Position numbers and translations under genes: made by a program
Origin: a virus
Direction: 5' to 3' (one strand)
Length of the DNA: 48,050 nucleotides
Virus record (IMG/VR): IMGVR_UViG_3300030451_002683
Span: 1-48,050 of that record
Shown here: positions 3,974 to 48,050 of the stretch, one piece after another
How positions within the stretch are numbered: the stretch's first letter is position 1
How the letters are laid out: each line of letters begins with the position of its first letter
The notes under the pieces: model-generated
What the model saw: only the letters and a program-made list of their open reading frames with translations
Databases searched by the model: none
What the model was told of the DNA's origin: nothing

Positions 3974-4257
3974 TGTACTACAACACTAACAACGAAACAG
4001 GAGATGTACTTAGAAGTAGTATAAAATCATCTAATAAACAAGAAGAAGTTATAATGGCTATATTTAATCATTACAAAAGAAACTTAAGTCCTGATGAAAT
4101 ACAGGGCATATTAGTTGATAATTCAGAAACTACATATCCTATTACTAGCATTAGAAGAGCTATGACTAACTTAACTAATGATGGTAAACTTAAGAAGACT
4201 AATATAATGAAAAAAGGTGTGTGGGGTAAGATGACCCATACATGGAAACTAATATAA
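3973..4257 (+). CDS. winged-helix-like small protein
   Basis: 94 aa. The middle reads like a winged helix-turn-helix: EVIMAIFNHYKRNLSPDEIQ, then TYPITSIRRAMTNLTNDGKL, then a basic beta wing ending THTWKLI. The pattern of a helix, TSIRRA recognition-type helix and LTNDGKLKK wing is common in phage HTH proteins that screen host growth state or regulate promoters. Family assignment is by pattern only. It is coupled to the preceding coiled-coil gene by TAATG. Confidence 0.55.
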   Translation: MYYNTNNETGDVLRSSIKSSNKQEEVIMAIFNHYKRNLSPDEIQGILVDNSETTYPITSIRRAMTNLTNDGKLKKTNIMKKGVWGKMTHTWKLI

Positions 4258-5065: not shown

Positions 5066-7984
5066 TTATCTATTTAAATCTCTTAATAATTGATCAAGCT
5101 TTATACTATTACTATTCTTATCTTTCTTTCTAACATTCTTTTTATTTAAAAAATAGTTAGACCCTTTAATTTTACTTTGCTTAAAAAGTCCAGTCCACTT
5201 TCTAATTTTCTTTATCTCAGGAGTAGGGTAAGCTGCAAAAACGTGTCTTGGCATATCGCTAAATGCTCTGCCGTTATGTATACTAGGTAAAGCTTTATTT
5301 GCCATAAATCCTGAAAATGTACCAAGCCTATTCCAAAAAGCTCTATCTTTAGCTTCGCCTCCTTGAGACTCTAAATATTTGTCGTAACCAAATGCCATTC
5401 TCATTATATCATTATCAGGCATTTCAATAAATCTTGATGCCATCATTAAGAATGCTAAATCATCTACTATAGGTCCAGTAAAATCAGAAGCAATACCATA
5501 ATAACCTTTTGCATTATCTTTTATAGTTCCATTAGGATTTAACTCATCAGGATCGGGACCTTGTATATTTCTAAATAAGTTTTGTATTTTTTTTATTAAA
5601 TCATTTTCAAATATATTAAACAAATTAGCATTTAAACCTACAGAAGCTAATCCTATAAAAGCAGTAATTGCAGCATAGTTACCTAAATATCTAGCTTCAG
5701 GTGAACCTTTAAAACTTTTTGACATTAATCCATATACAGTACCTTCTAGTACTTTATATTGCATGTCCATAAAAAACATAGGATAATGTAATAATCCAGT
5801 ACCTAAAGAAGTGAGAGAAGTAGCACCTACTTCAAGTTTATTTAAAAGTTTATTATTTATATCAACTTTACCTGGATGTCCAGTTAATATTCTTGATTTA
5901 GCGTGAAGAGCATACTCACCTGCAAACCTATTAACAACAAACAAAGCTACATTAGCAGCATCTTTTACTATTTTGTTTGTCATTGGAGATTCAAGATTAA
6001 TTTTATCTCCGTTGTGTTTTAACCAATACTCAGGATTTTTTTGATAATTAAGTAGAGATTCTACAAATGCATAGTTAAACATTTTTTTTCTTGTGTAGTT
6101 TTCTCCCCATCTATGAAATGATAGTAAAATTTCAGGAGTTTTAGATAACAAAGAAGTTACACCTTGACCATCACCACCTGGAACTGGAACCTTGTTTATT
6201 TGAGCTTTTATAAAGTCTATTACAGGATAAAATCCAGCAGATCTGTTTTCTCTTACTTCTACTTGACCTGTTTCATCATTATACTTAAAATCTAATTTTT
6301 CAGCACCTTCTTTACTTAATATTCCTTCAGCATATAACTCTTGACCTATATCACCAAATGTAAATCCTTGTATTTTACCTACAGTTTCTGCAAGTTGAGA
6401 ATAGCTTATAGCTGACTTAACTTTAACGTTTCCAACTTTCTTTTCATTTATAATGTTCCCAGTTTTTAAAGCTGCCTTTACAGTTCTAATTGCAGATAAT
6501 CCCATATGTGCCATAAAAAATTGAGCAGAAGCAACGTTTCTAATAGCACCAGTAATACCAAGTCCCATAGCTTTTAATGTTTCAAACAGCCTTACATTTC
6601 TAGTCAATTTATTTAGCCATTCAGGTCTATTTTGAAGCCCTTTTGTAGCTATTGTAAATTCAGAATCAATAAAATTACTTAATCCCTTTAAATAACTAGC
6701 TGTTAATTTAGGATTTTGCATAACTTTTAGCACTCTTTGATACTCTCTAGCAATAGTATTTAATTTGTTAAATTGAATAGCTTGAGATCCATATTGTTCT
6801 AATATAAAGAATGGATTTTCTGAAAACCTTCTTTCTAAAAGTGTGTTTTGAGCTTTTACATTTGCTGGAAGATTAGTTTTTAACATAGCAGTTAAATCTT
6901 CTGCTATTACAGAAACTTGATCGTCTATACCTTTGTATGATTCTTGCTCTAATAATTTATTAACCTGACCTTTTAATCTAATAGCATCATTTAACAAAAC
7001 TTGAGGATAATATCCTCCCTCTTTCATACCTAATTCAATTCTTTGTACTGCAGCTTCAATATTTTTATCTATTGATTTTAATTTTCTATTTGTAAGATTT
7101 ACAATTTTTCTACTGTCTGAATATTCTTCATTTACAGTTTTTAACCATATAGCTTCCCTTAAAGTTTTTAAAGCCTGTATATTTACTTTACCCATTTCAT
7201 TAAGATAAATTCTTGCATTATTAACAGCATCAATAACATGGCTATTATATGCAGTCCCAATTCTACCTTGCTTTTCTTCTATGTCTTTACCGTATTTTAG
7301 GCCTTGTACACCCTCTTTTATAGCCTTTTTTAAATCTTTTGGACTTAATGCTATAAGAGTATTAAAGTCTCTTATAAATGCCCCTTCATTACTTTCTACT
7401 ATTTTCTTTATTTTTTCTTGAGTTTCAAAGATAAATTCAGGATCATCACTAAATCTTAACTTATCTTCATATTCTTTTAATTTTTTTATAACTTTAGGAG
7501 CAAAGAATCTATTTGCAATACCTTCTTCAATATAAGCTTTTCTAATATTGCTATATATATTTTTCATTGCATTACCTTGTATAAGTAACGCATTTCTTTC
7601 AAAGTTTTTCATTCTATCTAAGTTTTGATAAAACCGTTTAGTAGCAGGAGTTTTTCTTGAAATAGCAGCAGGTATCTTATATAGAGCTTCAAGCCTACCT
7701 AAGGGACTTTGCATTTGTCTATCATGCTTTTTTAAATCAGAATAAAATCTTCGTTCTTGCCTAGGAGTTAACAGATAAGCATCATCTAATACTAATGCTT
7801 CATCTTGCATTTTTAAGATTTGTTCCATTTCTAAAACTGATCTAGTACCATCATTAATATCATTTATCTTACCATACATTTCAACTCTTAAATTAGAGTC
7901 ATTGTATGCTTTAACCATTCTAGATAATCTTTCTTTATTTTCTATAACTTCTTTAGTTAATAAAGTATTATTACAATCTGTCAT
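5066..7984 (-). CDS. large internal virion/ejection-type protein
   Basis: 972 aa, last gene of the - strand block, starting within the stop region of the giant upstream gene (TAATG-type overlap at 7984). Almost entirely alpha-helical and Lys/Asn/Glu-rich, with two hydrophobic stretches near residues 470-495 (GLGITGAIRNVASAQFFMAH) and 770-790 (AAITAFIGLASVGLN) that could cross or enter a membrane. Size, position after the capsid and tail genes and next to other helical giants fit an ejected internal protein of a short-tailed phage. No enzymatic motif seen. Annotation rests on context. Confidence 0.6.
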   Translation of the reverse strand: MTDCNNTLLTKEVIENKERLSRMVKAYNDSNLRVEMYGKINDINDGTRSVLEMEQILKMQDEALVLDDAYLLTPRQERRFYSDLKKHDRQMQSPLGRLEALYKIPAAISRKTPATKRFYQNLDRMKNFERNALLIQGNAMKNIYSNIRKAYIEEGIANRFFAPKVIKKLKEYEDKLRFSDDPEFIFETQEKIKKIVESNEGAFIRDFNTLIALSPKDLKKAIKEGVQGLKYGKDIEEKQGRIGTAYNSHVIDAVNNARIYLNEMGKVNIQALKTLREAIWLKTVNEEYSDSRKIVNLTNRKLKSIDKNIEAAVQRIELGMKEGGYYPQVLLNDAIRLKGQVNKLLEQESYKGIDDQVSVIAEDLTAMLKTNLPANVKAQNTLLERRFSENPFFILEQYGSQAIQFNKLNTIAREYQRVLKVMQNPKLTASYLKGLSNFIDSEFTIATKGLQNRPEWLNKLTRNVRLFETLKAMGLGITGAIRNVASAQFFMAHMGLSAIRTVKAALKTGNIINEKKVGNVKVKSAISYSQLAETVGKIQGFTFGDIGQELYAEGILSKEGAEKLDFKYNDETGQVEVRENRSAGFYPVIDFIKAQINKVPVPGGDGQGVTSLLSKTPEILLSFHRWGENYTRKKMFNYAFVESLLNYQKNPEYWLKHNGDKINLESPMTNKIVKDAANVALFVVNRFAGEYALHAKSRILTGHPGKVDINNKLLNKLEVGATSLTSLGTGLLHYPMFFMDMQYKVLEGTVYGLMSKSFKGSPEARYLGNYAAITAFIGLASVGLNANLFNIFENDLIKKIQNLFRNIQGPDPDELNPNGTIKDNAKGYYGIASDFTGPIVDDLAFLMMASRFIEMPDNDIMRMAFGYDKYLESQGGEAKDRAFWNRLGTFSGFMANKALPSIHNGRAFSDMPRHVFAAYPTPEIKKIRKWTGLFKQSKIKGSNYFLNKKNVRKKDKNSNSIKLDQLLRDLNR

Positions 7985-44127: not shown

Positions 44128-44442
44128 ATGGTAGACGATAGAACACATGAAGATGCTAAAGATATGGCTAATCAGGACAAAGAAGTAGAAGCTAGGAGCA
44201 TCAATGAAATCGGTGAATTAATTGCAGAAGGTAGTTATGATGATGCAATAAAAGTTATTAATAAAACTGCTAATGGTATAAAGTTTAACACTAAACTAAA
44301 CAAAGCAGCAAAGAAAAGAGCTATGGACAATCTTCGTTCAATTCTTGCTAATGTTCAATCAACAGCTAGAGCAATGGGTGAAGATAGATCATTAAGATCA
44401 GAGTTCAAACAATCTTGGTCTCTTTGCTACGTTAGCAGATAA
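44128..44442 (+). CDS. small early-type protein, unknown
   Basis: 104 aa, MVDDRTHEDAKDMANQDKEV start, helical, acidic N-terminal and basic C-terminal half (KLNKAAKKRAMDNLRSILAN). AGGAGAA precedes the ATG. It is alone between a divergent intergenic region and its own terminator at 44468-44490, so it is probably a monocistronic early message. No family recognised. Confidence 0.65.
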   Translation: MVDDRTHEDAKDMANQDKEVEARSINEIGELIAEGSYDDAIKVINKTANGIKFNTKLNKAAKKRAMDNLRSILANVQSTARAMGEDRSLRSEFKQSWSLCYVSR

Positions 44443-44467
44443 ATTGTTAATTAGTTACTTGATAATT

Positions 44468-44490
44468 GGGTGTATTAATTACACCCTTTT
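44468..44490 (+). terminator. Rho-independent terminator after the gene at 44128
   Basis: GGGTGTA (44468-44474), a 5-base loop, TACACCC (44480-44486) and TTTT. Perfect 7-bp stem 25 bases after the stop codon. It separates the upstream gene from the structured RNA region. Confidence 0.8.
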
Positions 44491-44542
44491 ATCTATTCTA
44501 TTTACTATTATTTACTGTTACACCTAAGAGTATAGGCGGAAG

Positions 44543-44565
44543 CGTGCGGTTGTATTGTTTTACAA
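44543..44565. promoter_or_regulatory. CGTGCGG plus small inverted repeat, copy 2
   Basis: CGTGCGG (44543-44549) followed by TTGTA (44550-44554) and TACAA (44561-44565). Like copy 1, it lies about 110 bases before the start of the following transcribed element (44651 here, 44128 there). A CCTA/TAGG hairpin (44523-44536) precedes it, so it may instead belong to the 5' end of the large RNA. Confidence 0.35.
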
Positions 44566-44650
44566 GGTTATCGATACGCGACATAACTCAAAGGTGTGCA
44601 TGTGTGTGTAAGTATATATATAAACTTATACCAAACAATAAGAATTAATA

Positions 44651-45613
44651 ATAGGCGTTATGCAGGACTGTGGTATACAATATTAGTAAAAAGCATAATA
44701 TAATATAGCTAGTGTTACATAGCGCCTAGACGGTTTAATAGACTTAATTGGGATCATTGTTAAAGAGTTGCTAGCTCTAAGTATTAATACTGCAATGGGA
44801 AACCATCGGTTTGAATCCGTAAAAGGTTATGTTGTACAGACTGAAATTATACATAGCCTTATGACAGGAAATTATACCTGCTGTGTCTGTATAGCCTGAG
44901 CATGCTTAAGGGGTAGCGTGTCCTAACTGCTCAAGTATTAAAATTGTGGGAGTTGATAGAGCAAAGGTATTACACAATGGTGAAAGTCCGTGTAATCTTA
45001 ATCTGCAGATAAGTCTGACCCAATGGGAAAGATCCAACTCTATTTATCGTATAGAGATCCATGAGATCCCAAAGGAGAATTTCCTGCGTGCGATAATCTC
45101 TCACAATAGCTATTAAAATTGCAGAGTGGTTGGATTGAGTAGGGTTGCTGAAAAATCTTAGAAAACCTTCGGGATTGCCCCATGTAGCGCATGGAATCTC
45201 TGCAATACGTGTTGACCGAGAAGTCCAACGCCCTGAAAAGATCCTTTAGCGGGGATACTGCGTGACTATAAAAGCTGACGGCATAGAATTAAAATAAAAC
45301 TTATCCTATATCAATGTTAACTTGCCCTTGGCTTATACCCAAGAAGGCGAGAGTCCTGAGATAACAACAGGTAAGGTATAGGAGCGCATTAAATTTATCT
45401 GGTAACGGAGGTCGTGGGACTGAGATGTTATCACAGCTGAGGTAGACTATAGGTAGAGAGAAAGTTCTAGGCCTAGAAAACAACAAGCTTACCTGTAGCG
45501 GGAGGTCTAAAAGCATGCTCCTAACTGGGGTATTCGGATGACTCTTGAGTGGTTTTGGAGACGTTACCACAATAAATATAAACGTCTCTAATAATTTAAT
45601 AACTCTCAAACCA
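44651..45613 (+). ncRNA. large ornate non-coding RNA, GOLLD/ROOL-class candidate
   Basis: About 960 bases without a credible gene, between a terminator and the ribosome site at 45628, and clearly richer in G+C than surrounding DNA. Helices seen: TAGGCGTTATG (44652-44662) with 44718-44728; ATGG-GAAA-CCAT (44795-44806); CGG-TTTGAAT-CCG (44807-44819); TACAGAC (44835-44841) with 44885-44891; TGAGCA (44897-44902) with 44928-44933; GAGTTG (44950-44955) with 45035-45040; ATTACAC (44969-44975) with 44990-44996; ATTGCAGAG (45118-45126) with 45198-45206; CCATG/CATGG (45180-45194); TCCTATA (45304-45310) with 45377-45383; CTTGG/CCAAG (45327-45343); ACAGGTAAG (45367-45375) with 45488-45496; GAGACGTT (45558-45565) with 45581-45588; TGGTTT (45550-45555) with 45608-45613. 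Giant ornate RNAs without ORFs are known from phages. Family identity and exact ends are not determined; the 5' end may extend to about 44520. Confidence 0.75.
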
Positions 45614-45627
45614 ATAAGGAGAAACAA

Positions 45628-46446
45628 ATGAGTAAAGAATATGATAGATATGCAGATCATAGTTGTGTAGATGAAGAAGGTAATCAATTACTTGATACAA
45701 TTATAAGAAATGAAGATGATGAAGAAGTTTTAGATAGAGCTGTAGAGGTGATGAACCTTGCTAGTGATATATCTGGTGAAGAATATGTAATGTTTAAAGA
45801 AATAGTTGACAGAGTAAGAAATGAAATGGTATTAGACCATGAACAAATAGATATATTTCACAACAATAACAGTACTGGAATGAAACCTAGAACAGATTTC
45901 TTTTCTGGTATTACAAAAATGAGCTCTCTGTTTAAAAGATATTTTATAGAAAATCAATGGAAATATGTTTATACTTATAAAGATAATTCTTGGCAGCCTT
46001 TAAACAGTAAAAAGGACATTATTAAAAGTATTAGACAATTTGTTTATGATAGACATTGTACAAATTATGATTGGCCTAATAAAATATATATGGCTTCAGT
46101 ATGTTATGAAGATTATTGGGGTAATTATCCTGCTTTTAGTGGGAAACTTAAACCAATAGATTTTGCTAGATGTTTTGCTGATGTTGTTTATGCTTTAGGT
46201 AGATTCATGCATTATGTTAGTGAACAACCTCATCTTAAAGGAGGTGATTATAACTCTTATGAGCCAAGTTTTAAAGTTGAAGAAGTATATTTAGGTGATG
46301 TTGAACATTTTCTAGAAAACTATATAAAATGGTATAAAGATAATGATAAAGAGCATGTATATGAGTTATTAGTTGATGTATATACAGATATAGTAGATGC
46401 AGATAATTATGAAGATTATGAAAAAAGTTTAGGAGAAGAATCATGA
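45628..46446 (+). CDS. unknown 272-aa early-type protein
   Basis: Starts MSKEYDRYADHSCVDEEGNQ after AATAAGGAGAAA, directly behind the large structured RNA, so the RNA may be part of its leader or be processed from it. Acidic, helical N-terminal third; the middle has many aromatic residues (FIENQWKYVYTYKDNSWQPL; VCYEDYWGNYPAF) and an FARCFADVVYALGRFMHYVS helix. No catalytic motif recognised. Its end overlaps the next ATG by 4 bases. Confidence 0.75.
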   Translation: MSKEYDRYADHSCVDEEGNQLLDTIIRNEDDEEVLDRAVEVMNLASDISGEEYVMFKEIVDRVRNEMVLDHEQIDIFHNNNSTGMKPRTDFFSGITKMSSLFKRYFIENQWKYVYTYKDNSWQPLNSKKDIIKSIRQFVYDRHCTNYDWPNKIYMASVCYEDYWGNYPAFSGKLKPIDFARCFADVVYALGRFMHYVSEQPHLKGGDYNSYEPSFKVEEVYLGDVEHFLENYIKWYKDNDKEHVYELLVDVYTDIVDADNYEDYEKSLGEES

Positions 46447-46556
46447 TGCAAATTAAATGTAGAAATATAGTAATTACTTGTACTTGTACTTGTACTTATA
46501 ATATTCTAGGAAATACTACTCACAGATATGGTTTTTGTGAATGTTGTTATTCTTAA
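46443..46556 (+). CDS. tiny Cys-rich protein
   Basis: 37 aa starting MMQIKCRNIVITCTCTCTYN, with a final FCECCYS. Eight or so Cys residues could bind zinc. The CT repeats arise from three copies of ACTTGT in the DNA. The ATG overlaps the end of the previous gene, but no strong ribosome site is visible beyond AGGAGAAG. Moderately convincing. Confidence 0.45.
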   Translation: MMQIKCRNIVITCTCTCTYNILGNTTHRYGFCECCYS

Positions 46557-46565
46557 ATAAATACC

Positions 46566-46727
46566 CGACACACTGGAGCGATTCGAAAGTGAACCTTGAC
46601 AGGTTATGTACTACCTAGGGAGTATATTTAGAACACTATTAGATACCAATCTCGGCCCTGTTGATGGATGCTACCGATAGAACCTTTATGGTCACTAAGC
46701 TAAAGCAATCACCAGGGCTGGTGTGTT
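46566..46727 (+). ncRNA. helix-closed structured RNA element C
   Basis: The ends pair: ACACAC (46568-46573) with GTGTGT (46721-46726), extended by wobble pairs. Inside are AACCT-TGAC-AGGTT (46592-46605), ATGTACT (46606-46612) with AGTATAT (46621-46627), and GCCCTG (46655-46660) with CAGGGC (46713-46718). This is a multi-branched RNA of about 160 nt without an ORF, richer in G+C than neighbours. It ends about 40 bases before the gene at 46769. Confidence 0.6.
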
Positions 46728-46753
46728 AAACAGTTAATATAAAACAGTTAATA
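46728..46753 (+). repeat. two tandem copies of AAACAGTTAATA
   Basis: Exact copies at 46728-46739 and 46742-46753, period 14, directly after structured RNA element C and before the AAAAGGAG site of the next gene. Confidence 0.7.
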
Positions 46754-46768
46754 AAAGGAGATCCTACC

Positions 46769-46951
46769 ATGGGAAAAAAAGAAGTTTTTAATGTATTACC
46801 AGAATCAATAATAGAGAATGATAGTTTAGATAATATCTTGAAGGCATTTCTTATTGCTAGAAAAGATATAATGAAAGCTAAATCAAGAAAGCAGGCTAAG
46901 TCTGTTATAACTCTTGGGAAAGGTAGTAAGGTAATAGAGAAATGCATATAG
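46769..46951 (+). CDS. small protein, unknown
   Basis: 60 aa, MGKKEVFNVLPESIIENDSL start after AAAAGGAGATCC. N-terminal acidic, C-terminal basic helix with KAKSRKQAKS. Overlaps the next gene by 10 bases. No family recognised. Confidence 0.6.
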   Translation: MGKKEVFNVLPESIIENDSLDNILKAFLIARKDIMKAKSRKQAKSVITLGKGSKVIEKCI

Positions 46952-47124
46952 AATCATTTGTATTAATAATACTTGGCCTTATAAGTATTATAACATTTAC
47001 TATGGCAATACATGGCATACTTATGTTCTTCAGACAATTAAATGATGATTGGAAAATTAGAAAAGTGCAGCGCAAGTATGCTGAGAAGTATGATGATCCA
47101 TTCTATGTAGAGGAGGATAAGTAA
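46942..47124 (+). CDS. small membrane protein
   Basis: 60 aa: one strong membrane helix at about 5-30 (SFVLIILGLISIITFTMAIH) followed by a charged cytoplasmic-type tail ending DDPFYVEEDK. Ends in TAATG overlap with the next gene. May modify the host membrane or anchor partners; function unknown. Confidence 0.6.
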   Translation: MHIESFVLIILGLISIITFTMAIHGILMFFRQLNDDWKIRKVQRKYAEKYDDPFYVEEDK

Positions 47125-47297
47125 TGGCAGGTAATTATACAGAAATGTTAGAGATAGTCAAGCGACTACAAGAGGCAAAAGCCAAAATACTTTCTAAGAT
47201 TGAGACTGAGACTAAAGCTTTGGAAGCATTAGATAAGGATATTAAGAAGTTTCAGTTTCAAATGTCAAAAGGAATTGGTAGGAGAGTAGACCTGTAG
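47124..47297 (+). CDS. small coiled-coil protein
   Basis: 57 aa, MAGNYTEMLEIVKRLQEAKA start, with GAGGAGGAT site. A continuous charged heptad helix and basic end (SKGIGRRVDL). Its TAG stop lies inside the 5' arm of a perfect 8-bp hairpin, ACCTGTAG (47290-47297) with CTACAGGT (47320-47327), so message end and structure are linked. Confidence 0.65.
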   Translation: MAGNYTEMLEIVKRLQEAKAKILSKIETETKALEALDKDIKKFQFQMSKGIGRRVDL

Positions 47298-47333
47298 GAG
47301 TAGACAAGGCTCAAAACAGCTACAGGTTAACAT

Positions 47334-47401
47334 AACACCCATCATCGATAGTACTGCACTAAGGGCTTAAACTGACTGGTTTAGGCCTGTTGGTGGGTGT
47401 T
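47334..47401 (+). ncRNA. three-way-junction structured RNA element D
   Basis: Closing helix of 10 pairs, AACACCCATC (47334-47343) with GGTGGGTGTT (47392-47401). Inside lie TAGT/ACTA (47349-47361) and a 10-pair hairpin GGGCTTAAAC (47363-47372) with GTTTAGGCCT (47379-47388). AATTTTT follows, which could give terminator activity, but the branched body is more than a terminator needs. An 8-bp hairpin (47290-47327) stands immediately before it. Confidence 0.6.
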
Positions 47402-47422
47402 AATTTTTAAAAGGAGAATAAT

Positions 47423-47512
47423 ATGTATTTATTAATATCACTGTTAATAATAGCTTTAGGAATATTATGGTTAATATTAACAAGGGCAGGTATAGATGAC
47501 CTCCACGATTAA
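47423..47512 (+). CDS. 29-residue membrane peptide
   Basis: MYLLISLLIIALGILWLILT followed by RAGIDDLHD; nearly all is one membrane helix. AAAAGGAGAATA gives an excellent start at 47423. Its end overlaps the next gene by 17 bases. Short phage membrane peptides of this kind are common but of unknown role. Confidence 0.6.
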   Translation: MYLLISLLIIALGILWLILTRAGIDDLHD

Positions 47513-47861
47513 TTATGTTATATATCACAGAAATAACAGACAACTTGAACTAACAAACCACATTGAACCAGATGGTGATCTTGATCCTAACTATACACTA
47601 ATTAGGAACAGAGCCTTAACAGGAATATATATCAATGATGAATTTGTAAGTCAAGATGCAAAATCATTTAAATGGCTCATAGAATGTGCTAAAACGCAAA
47701 AAGAAGGGCAATATTGTCCTATATGTAGTGGCATATTTGAAGATGCATTAAATAATAACTATAAAATAACTAAGTTTTATAGAGATAACGTAGTAGACGC
47801 TGATATACCACATCCATTGCTTGATGAGGTAATTAAAGTGTTTAAAAATAAGGAGAAGTAG
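47496..47861 (+). CDS. unknown protein with a CxxC pair
   Basis: 121 aa, MTSTINYVIYHRNNRQLELT start. Contains C-P-I-C (near residue 74), which with C64 could form a small metal site, but a full zinc finger is not clear. Helical C-terminal end (LLDEVIKVFKNKEK). The start has GGGCAGG upstream and lies in the preceding small gene. Confidence 0.6.
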   Translation: MTSTINYVIYHRNNRQLELTNHIEPDGDLDPNYTLIRNRALTGIYINDEFVSQDAKSFKWLIECAKTQKEGQYCPICSGIFEDALNNNYKITKFYRDNVVDADIPHPLLDEVIKVFKNKEK

Positions 47862-47862
47862 T

Positions 47863-48050
47863 ATGGGATTTGATTTAAGTGGTATGAACCCTAAAATACA
47901 CAAACATGAGTCTGAATACAAGTATTTTAAAGAAGATAGCGACTTGTGGAAGGATGAGAACATAGAAAGACGTAAAAAGTATTTTCAAGACATGGAAAGG
48001 TATCATGAAGACAATCCAGGCGTGTATTTTCGTAATAATGTGTGGTGGTG
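47863..48050 (+). CDS. conserved phage protein, 3' truncated by the window
   Basis: The first 62 residues begin MGFDLSGMNPKIHKHESEYK and reach PGVYFRNNVWWW at the window edge. Proteins with an MGFDLxGxNP start and a Y-F-R-N-N-x-W-W-W block are a recognisable conserved phage type in aquatic phages; their function is not known to me. The ATG follows AAGGAGAAG. Confidence 0.7.
   Translation, partial: MGFDLSGMNPKIHKHESEYKYFKEDSDLWKDENIERRKKYFQDMERYHEDNPGVYFRNNVWW

Follow-up and report, generated by a model that had tools for sequence, protein, structure and literature searches.

A conserved folded RNA at the head of a gene cluster among uncultured tailed phages

What is the hairpin and branched fold that lies just ahead of a gene near the end of a 48,050-base stretch of phage DNA, and does it act as RNA? 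The stretch (the window) comprises bases 1-48050 of the 104,488-base IMG/VR record G000, a tailed-phage genome with portal, terminase and SU10-like capsid genes. The record appears to join two related, collinear phage genomes, with position 1 of the window corresponding to about G000:53304; a run of N lies near G000:103498, and the join is likely a scaffolding artefact. The uncultured phage group is large, with at least 599 terminase matches, and its terminase stays below 60% identity with that of every one of the 512 matching named phage records. Judging from the comparison of related phages, the fold, here called element D, is a conserved RNA that heads a gene cluster and probably controls or protects the message that follows. 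The features in the window are as follows.

44602..44637, + strand: promoter-like conserved element GTGTGTGTAAGTATATATATAAACTTATACCAAACA with the core TATATAAACTTATA; putative promoter
47275..47285, + strand: conserved 5' tail UUGGUAGGAGA, from alignment A2
47290..47327, + strand: hairpin P1, ACCUGUAG/CUACAGGU, from pairing and two-sided changes
47298-47300 and 47310-47312, + strand: inner stem P1a, GAG/CUC, with the loop GACAAG and the 3' bulge AAAACAG
47334..47346, + strand: 5' strand of P2, AACACCCAUCAUC
47349..47361, + strand: P3 arm, UAGU/ACUA, in the minimum-energy fold of the window; weak in type A
47363..47388, + strand: P4 arm, 11 pairs in the window
47389..47401, + strand: 3' strand of P2, GUUGGUGGGUGUU
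47410..47425, + strand: ribosome-binding site AAAGGAG and start codon of the following gene (ATG 20 nt past element D)
47423..48050, + strand: start of the co-directed gene cluster behind D

In the window, positions 47274-47403 fold into the hairpin P1 and a branched domain with a z-score of -4.09, and 47285-47420 reach -46.9 kcal/mol with a z-score of -4.37; none of 200 shuffles folded as well in either case, and the hairpin and branched domain of the preliminary description hold at the positions given there. P1 consists of 8 Watson-Crick pairs between 47290-47297 and 47320-47327, and the TAG at 47295-47297, inside its 5' arm, terminates an ORF at 47124-47297. The 68-nt domain at 47334-47401 is closed by P2, a helix of 12 pairs around one U-U mismatch, and contains a 4-bp arm (47349-47352/47358-47361) and an 11-pair arm (47363-47373/47378-47388). 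When the homologous stretches were folded singly, 6 of 13 beat all shuffles, and for the other 7 between 1 and 23 of 200 shuffles did as well, so that fold energy alone is insufficient to establish the fold; the comparison does establish it.

Relatives were sought by pattern scans of viral contigs. The scan anchored on P1 returned 11 stretches, of which 10 were real and L088 was judged chance, and the scan anchored on the branched domain returned 31, with 15 real and 16 judged chance. A looser pattern gave no further member, its new loci being judged chance, and the matches L088, L173 and L174 were rejected. On 56 loci consisting of chance and other pattern matches, the model R1 scored at best 13.4 bits (E 1.5). 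The family comprises 15 other IMG/VR records, which answers the earlier call to look for the junction in other phage genomes, and a second copy in G000 (102862-102974, 78% identical), a counterpart in a related genome. Its members are about 113-130 nt long. Among 16 records searched for copy number, each of the 14 with a full-length match held one copy, the L024 record gave a partial match and L131 none; a weak antisense match in one record was not counted.

R1 was also run over 83 sources (the window, two other G000 stretches and 80 terminase loci, many of them short), where it matched the window, L003, L005, L006, L080 and a new partial form in L024 (31 bits). Among 20 terminase loci with the gene family F4 by tblastn, it found D in 3, the partial form in L024 and nothing in 16, and D is therefore restricted to part of the phage group. 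No match was obtained with the strict pattern in bacterial genome contigs, or by blastn of window positions 46400-48050 against named phages.

Covariation was counted in alignment A2, which has 13 rows; the partial L024 was excluded before counting, as were the near-duplicates L085, L087, L089, L090, L091, L095 and L115. Over 31 pairs, 93.5% of the cells were paired, compared to 86.9% in shuffles and 34-45% in slid controls, the cells not being independent because L005, L006, L093 and L094 are closely similar. Two-sided changes occurred in 10 pairs and 25 cells, against 5.0 and 7.6 in shuffles, none of 500 shuffles reaching these values, which kinship among the aligned sequences inflates. Further pair types were less striking, the observed value being reached by 29 of 500 shuffles. 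Two-sided changes affected 3 of 8 pairs in P1 (95.2% of cells paired), 2 of 3 in P1a (88.9%) and 2 of 12 in P2 (99.4%), with examples such as C-G/U-A and G-C/A-U in P1, A-U/G-C in P1a and A-U/G-C in outer P2. Inner P2 is invariant, in part because the search pattern required those letters; similarly, GACAAG..GCYCAAAACAGCT and CATCGATAG..CTGTTGGTGG owe part of their invariance to the search patterns, which demanded both anchors. Four relatives, L102, L107, L108 and L110 (and L115, a duplicate of L107), were found by the branched-domain anchor alone, and in these, obtained without the P1 anchor, P1 and its loop do vary. With the structure withheld, RNAalifold recovered P1, P1a, P2 and a 3-bp P4 from the 13 rows, and P3 was absent. 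A long-range AACAG-CUGUU pairing was rejected, being 90.8% paired, equal to shuffles, and lacking covariation.

The alignment contains 41 G-U cells versus 2 A-C cells, and D was assigned to the + strand on this basis. Ahead of P1, the 5' tail reads UUGGUAGGAGA in 10 of the 13 aligned sequences, UAGGUAGGAGA in L108, and AGUGAGGAGA in L002 and L086; the L094 row begins two letters late, and the full tail is present in its sequence. The tail lies outside any detected upstream ORF in six relatives (L005, L080, L102, L107, L092 and L110), which suggests that it is conserved as RNA and not as codons.

The inner part of the branched domain divides the family. In type B (L080, L086, L102 and L110), the consensus is a clear three-way junction with a 4-bp P3, UAGG/CCUR, and P4 is variable. 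In type A (8 sequences including the window), the RNAalifold consensus has P2 and a 4-bp P4 and leaves P3 open. The third arm is thus firm only in the four type B relatives and weak in type A, and counts of P3 across the types hinge on the alignment register, the loop being 5 in type A and 4 in type B. Of the two long helices reported originally, both are present in the window fold, but the long inner arm is specific to the window: it stems from a 14-column insertion that 8 of the 12 other aligned sequences lack and for which 4 have shorter, different inserts, and no other of the 13 aligned sequences has a long P4. In L024, the 5' tail and the P1 stem are kept and the rest is swapped for a domain closed by UAACAGCC/GGCUGUUA, a replacement by which the two modules of D may be exchangeable.

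Behind D, the gene family F1 was found in 11 of 12 contexts, accompanied by F3, F7, F2, F4 or F10 wherever these were detected; in the window, the stretch behind D ends too soon to reveal F1. The immediate neighbours of D on the upstream and downstream sides change from one context to another, and between the window and L003, which both carry D, no similarity was detected between the flanking genes on either side. Because the first downstream gene changes, no single regulated gene stands out. The first Shine-Dalgarno sequence and start codon lie 19-33 nt past D in 10 of 13 full members, the exceptions being L086 (3 nt), L080 (53 nt) and L102 (73 nt). Two proteins of the cluster in L177, a small one weakly like ThiS at 3982-4200 (E 0.0025) and a Prok-JAB-like one at 5549-6517 (E 8.5e-5), were both below the cut-off, and the pair could possibly represent a ubiquitin-like pathway; the small ThiS-like protein gave weak DegQ matches only against PDB sequences, the best with E 0.09.

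Upstream, the core TATATAAACTTATA was present 555-2657 nt ahead of D in 10 of 14 stretches, among them L024, the other 4 possibly being too short. Genes and noncoding stretches occupy this interval, and 0.55-2.66 kb between the promoter-like element and D is a long way for a classical leader. GOLLD RNA was found upstream of D in 2 of 11 sources, at L178:1467-1882 (168.4 bits) and L179:2048-2467 (155.2 bits), with a gathering score of 150 for the model (RF02032); a search of the window stretch 44300-46700 and of L002 gave no match. In clade members with F4 but without D, among those listed and by crude ORF and shuffle rules, other noncoding stretches lie upstream of F4. The region upstream of D also holds a tRNA-Met and a tRNA-like gene with the anticodon TTA in L003 (13257-13329 and 13668-13756), and matches of about 80 nt to the tmRNA model in L181 (3734-3815) and L178 (845-925), one above and one below the gathering score. 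The transcripts of this group would also carry giant and tRNA-like RNAs. Long noncoding stretches occur at window 44650-45630, at L002:1-900 and in many intergenic regions of L008-L054, with no Rfam match where searched, and some of them fold well against mononucleotide shuffles.

With Rfam 15, no match at the gathering score was found in the window, and at E 10 the structured part of D was unmatched, one minus-strand chance match (E 2.7) touching the 5' tail. The GOLLD covariance model matched upstream of D and not on D; GOLLD is likewise a phage noncoding RNA, from which D is separate and far smaller. The structured RNAs manA and wcaG come from marine metagenomes and cyanophages, manA occurring in potential 5' UTRs (PMC2864571); D differs in having no Rfam match at the gathering score. 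No published description of D was found in the titles and abstract beginnings of open-licence PMC papers. D adds to the large uncultured phage group a structured RNA family with real covariation and no match in Rfam 15.

Among the functions that such an RNA might have, two concern the end of the upstream gene. The UAG in the 5' arm of the window's P1 could make D a site of recoding by readthrough or bypass, an idea that is hardly credible and is largely refuted by the 14 contexts, a set that includes near-duplicates such as L005 and L093: the upstream ORF stops within P1 in 6 of them and at or just before D in 5, and none was detected in the remaining 3, although the start rule may have overlooked one in L086. 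The stop codon first noticed in the hairpin is real in the window, but a function for it there is not supported, since a stop lies in P1 in only those 6 contexts. That D terminates transcription of the upstream gene is very unlikely. An AATTTTT follows P2 in the window and is shared with L006 and L094, but it is no conserved terminator tail, since TTTTT occurs in only 3 of 14; T residues within 8 bases after P2 number at most 5 in 5 of 14 and 3 or 4 in 9 of 14, and the next gene mostly begins some 20 nt further on. A terminator scan, which is blind to branched helices, did not list D. The case of a plain terminator without conserved branching, against which the preliminary description set its proposal, does not apply, because the hairpin and branched RNA are conserved in other phages with covariation.

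The remaining alternatives look to the genes behind D or to a role elsewhere. A ligand-binding riboswitch would suit a compact element that lies ahead of a ribosome-binding site and has conserved unpaired residues, but the structured part has no Rfam match even at E 10, the regulated gene is not consistent and informal inspection showed no expression platform, and this reading appears improbable. Somewhat better, yet still doubtful, is the proposal that D is cut from the transcript as a trans-acting small RNA, such as one that works with neighbouring RNAs or titrates a host factor as a decoy; it is consistent with the GOLLD and tRNA-like genes in the same region of some relatives and with a single copy per record independent of the flanking genes, but the place of D before the same cluster is constant, a 3' terminator is not conserved, and the end of the upstream gene overlaps P1 in 6 of 14 contexts. 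More plausible, though on the whole unlikely, would be an mRNA processing or stability element, in which upstream cleavage leaves D as a structured 5' cap split from the RNA-rich region. D stands where variable genes and noncoding RNAs, including GOLLD in two relatives, give way to a protein gene cluster, has a start codon some 20 nt behind it in most contexts, and is tied to the cluster and not to one gene; simple caps, however, need no conserved loops such as GACAAG and AAAACAG, whose conservation is partly imposed by the search. This processing or stability role ranks next, as a minority possibility, after control in cis by a bound factor.

Control of the gene cluster in cis by a bound factor is the reading we favour, tentatively, and D is most likely a cis-acting leader element as far as can be judged from sequence. 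In the proposed mechanism, transcription from the upstream promoter-like element would pass through D in what is presumably an early transcript. The + strand RNA folds into P1 with P1a, leaving the conserved GACAAG and AAAACAG unpaired, and into the branched domain closed by P2. D sits at a seam between variable genes and noncoding RNAs upstream and a conserved cluster of small-protein genes downstream. A putative phage or host factor would recognise the fold on the nascent or finished message and might set expression of the cluster, in either direction, at the level of transcript elongation or mRNA processing; the target would be the whole cluster and not one particular gene. An alternative fold that would mask the ribosome-binding site was not noticed on informal inspection.

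A precedent is HK022 put, a cis-acting antiterminator RNA of a phage, which suppresses pausing and termination by binding RNA polymerase. It has two folded domains and precedes a gene set in the transcript (PMC9378689). At about 70 nt, put is shorter than D; putL directly follows the promoter and putR lies some 270 nt past the start site. D too has two folded domains ahead of a gene set, a likeness of architecture and setting and not of sequence, and R1 gave no match over the HK022 genome (NC_002166) at E 10 with default filters. D differs in its length of 113-130 nt and its place 0.55-2.66 kb after the promoter-like element. We hypothesize that D, like put, acts in cis on the following genes. 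It is conceivable, if rather speculative, that D is the first representative of a new class of operon-control RNAs in phages, which would act directly on transcription or mRNA without a dedicated metabolite. If D controls the cluster in cis, it would offer a compact model for RNA-based phage gene control in the vicinity of GOLLD RNAs.

Element C (window 46560-46725) is, like D, a candidate structured intergenic RNA on the same strand. The kinship of C and D proposed originally did not survive: 12 letters of a 14-nt stretch are alike, but this similarity is at chance level, since 383 of 2000 shuffled versions of C and 143 of the 1092 other segments of the window score as well. R1 gave no match on C, and a link by circular permutation, suggested by CGAUAG and CUAAG in both elements, was dropped. 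C differs from D in having its own relative in L125/L131. The diverged relative at L125:7218-7435 retains conserved blocks, and a helix in it is changed yet kept by eye (CCCUG/CAGGG and CUCUG/CAGAG).
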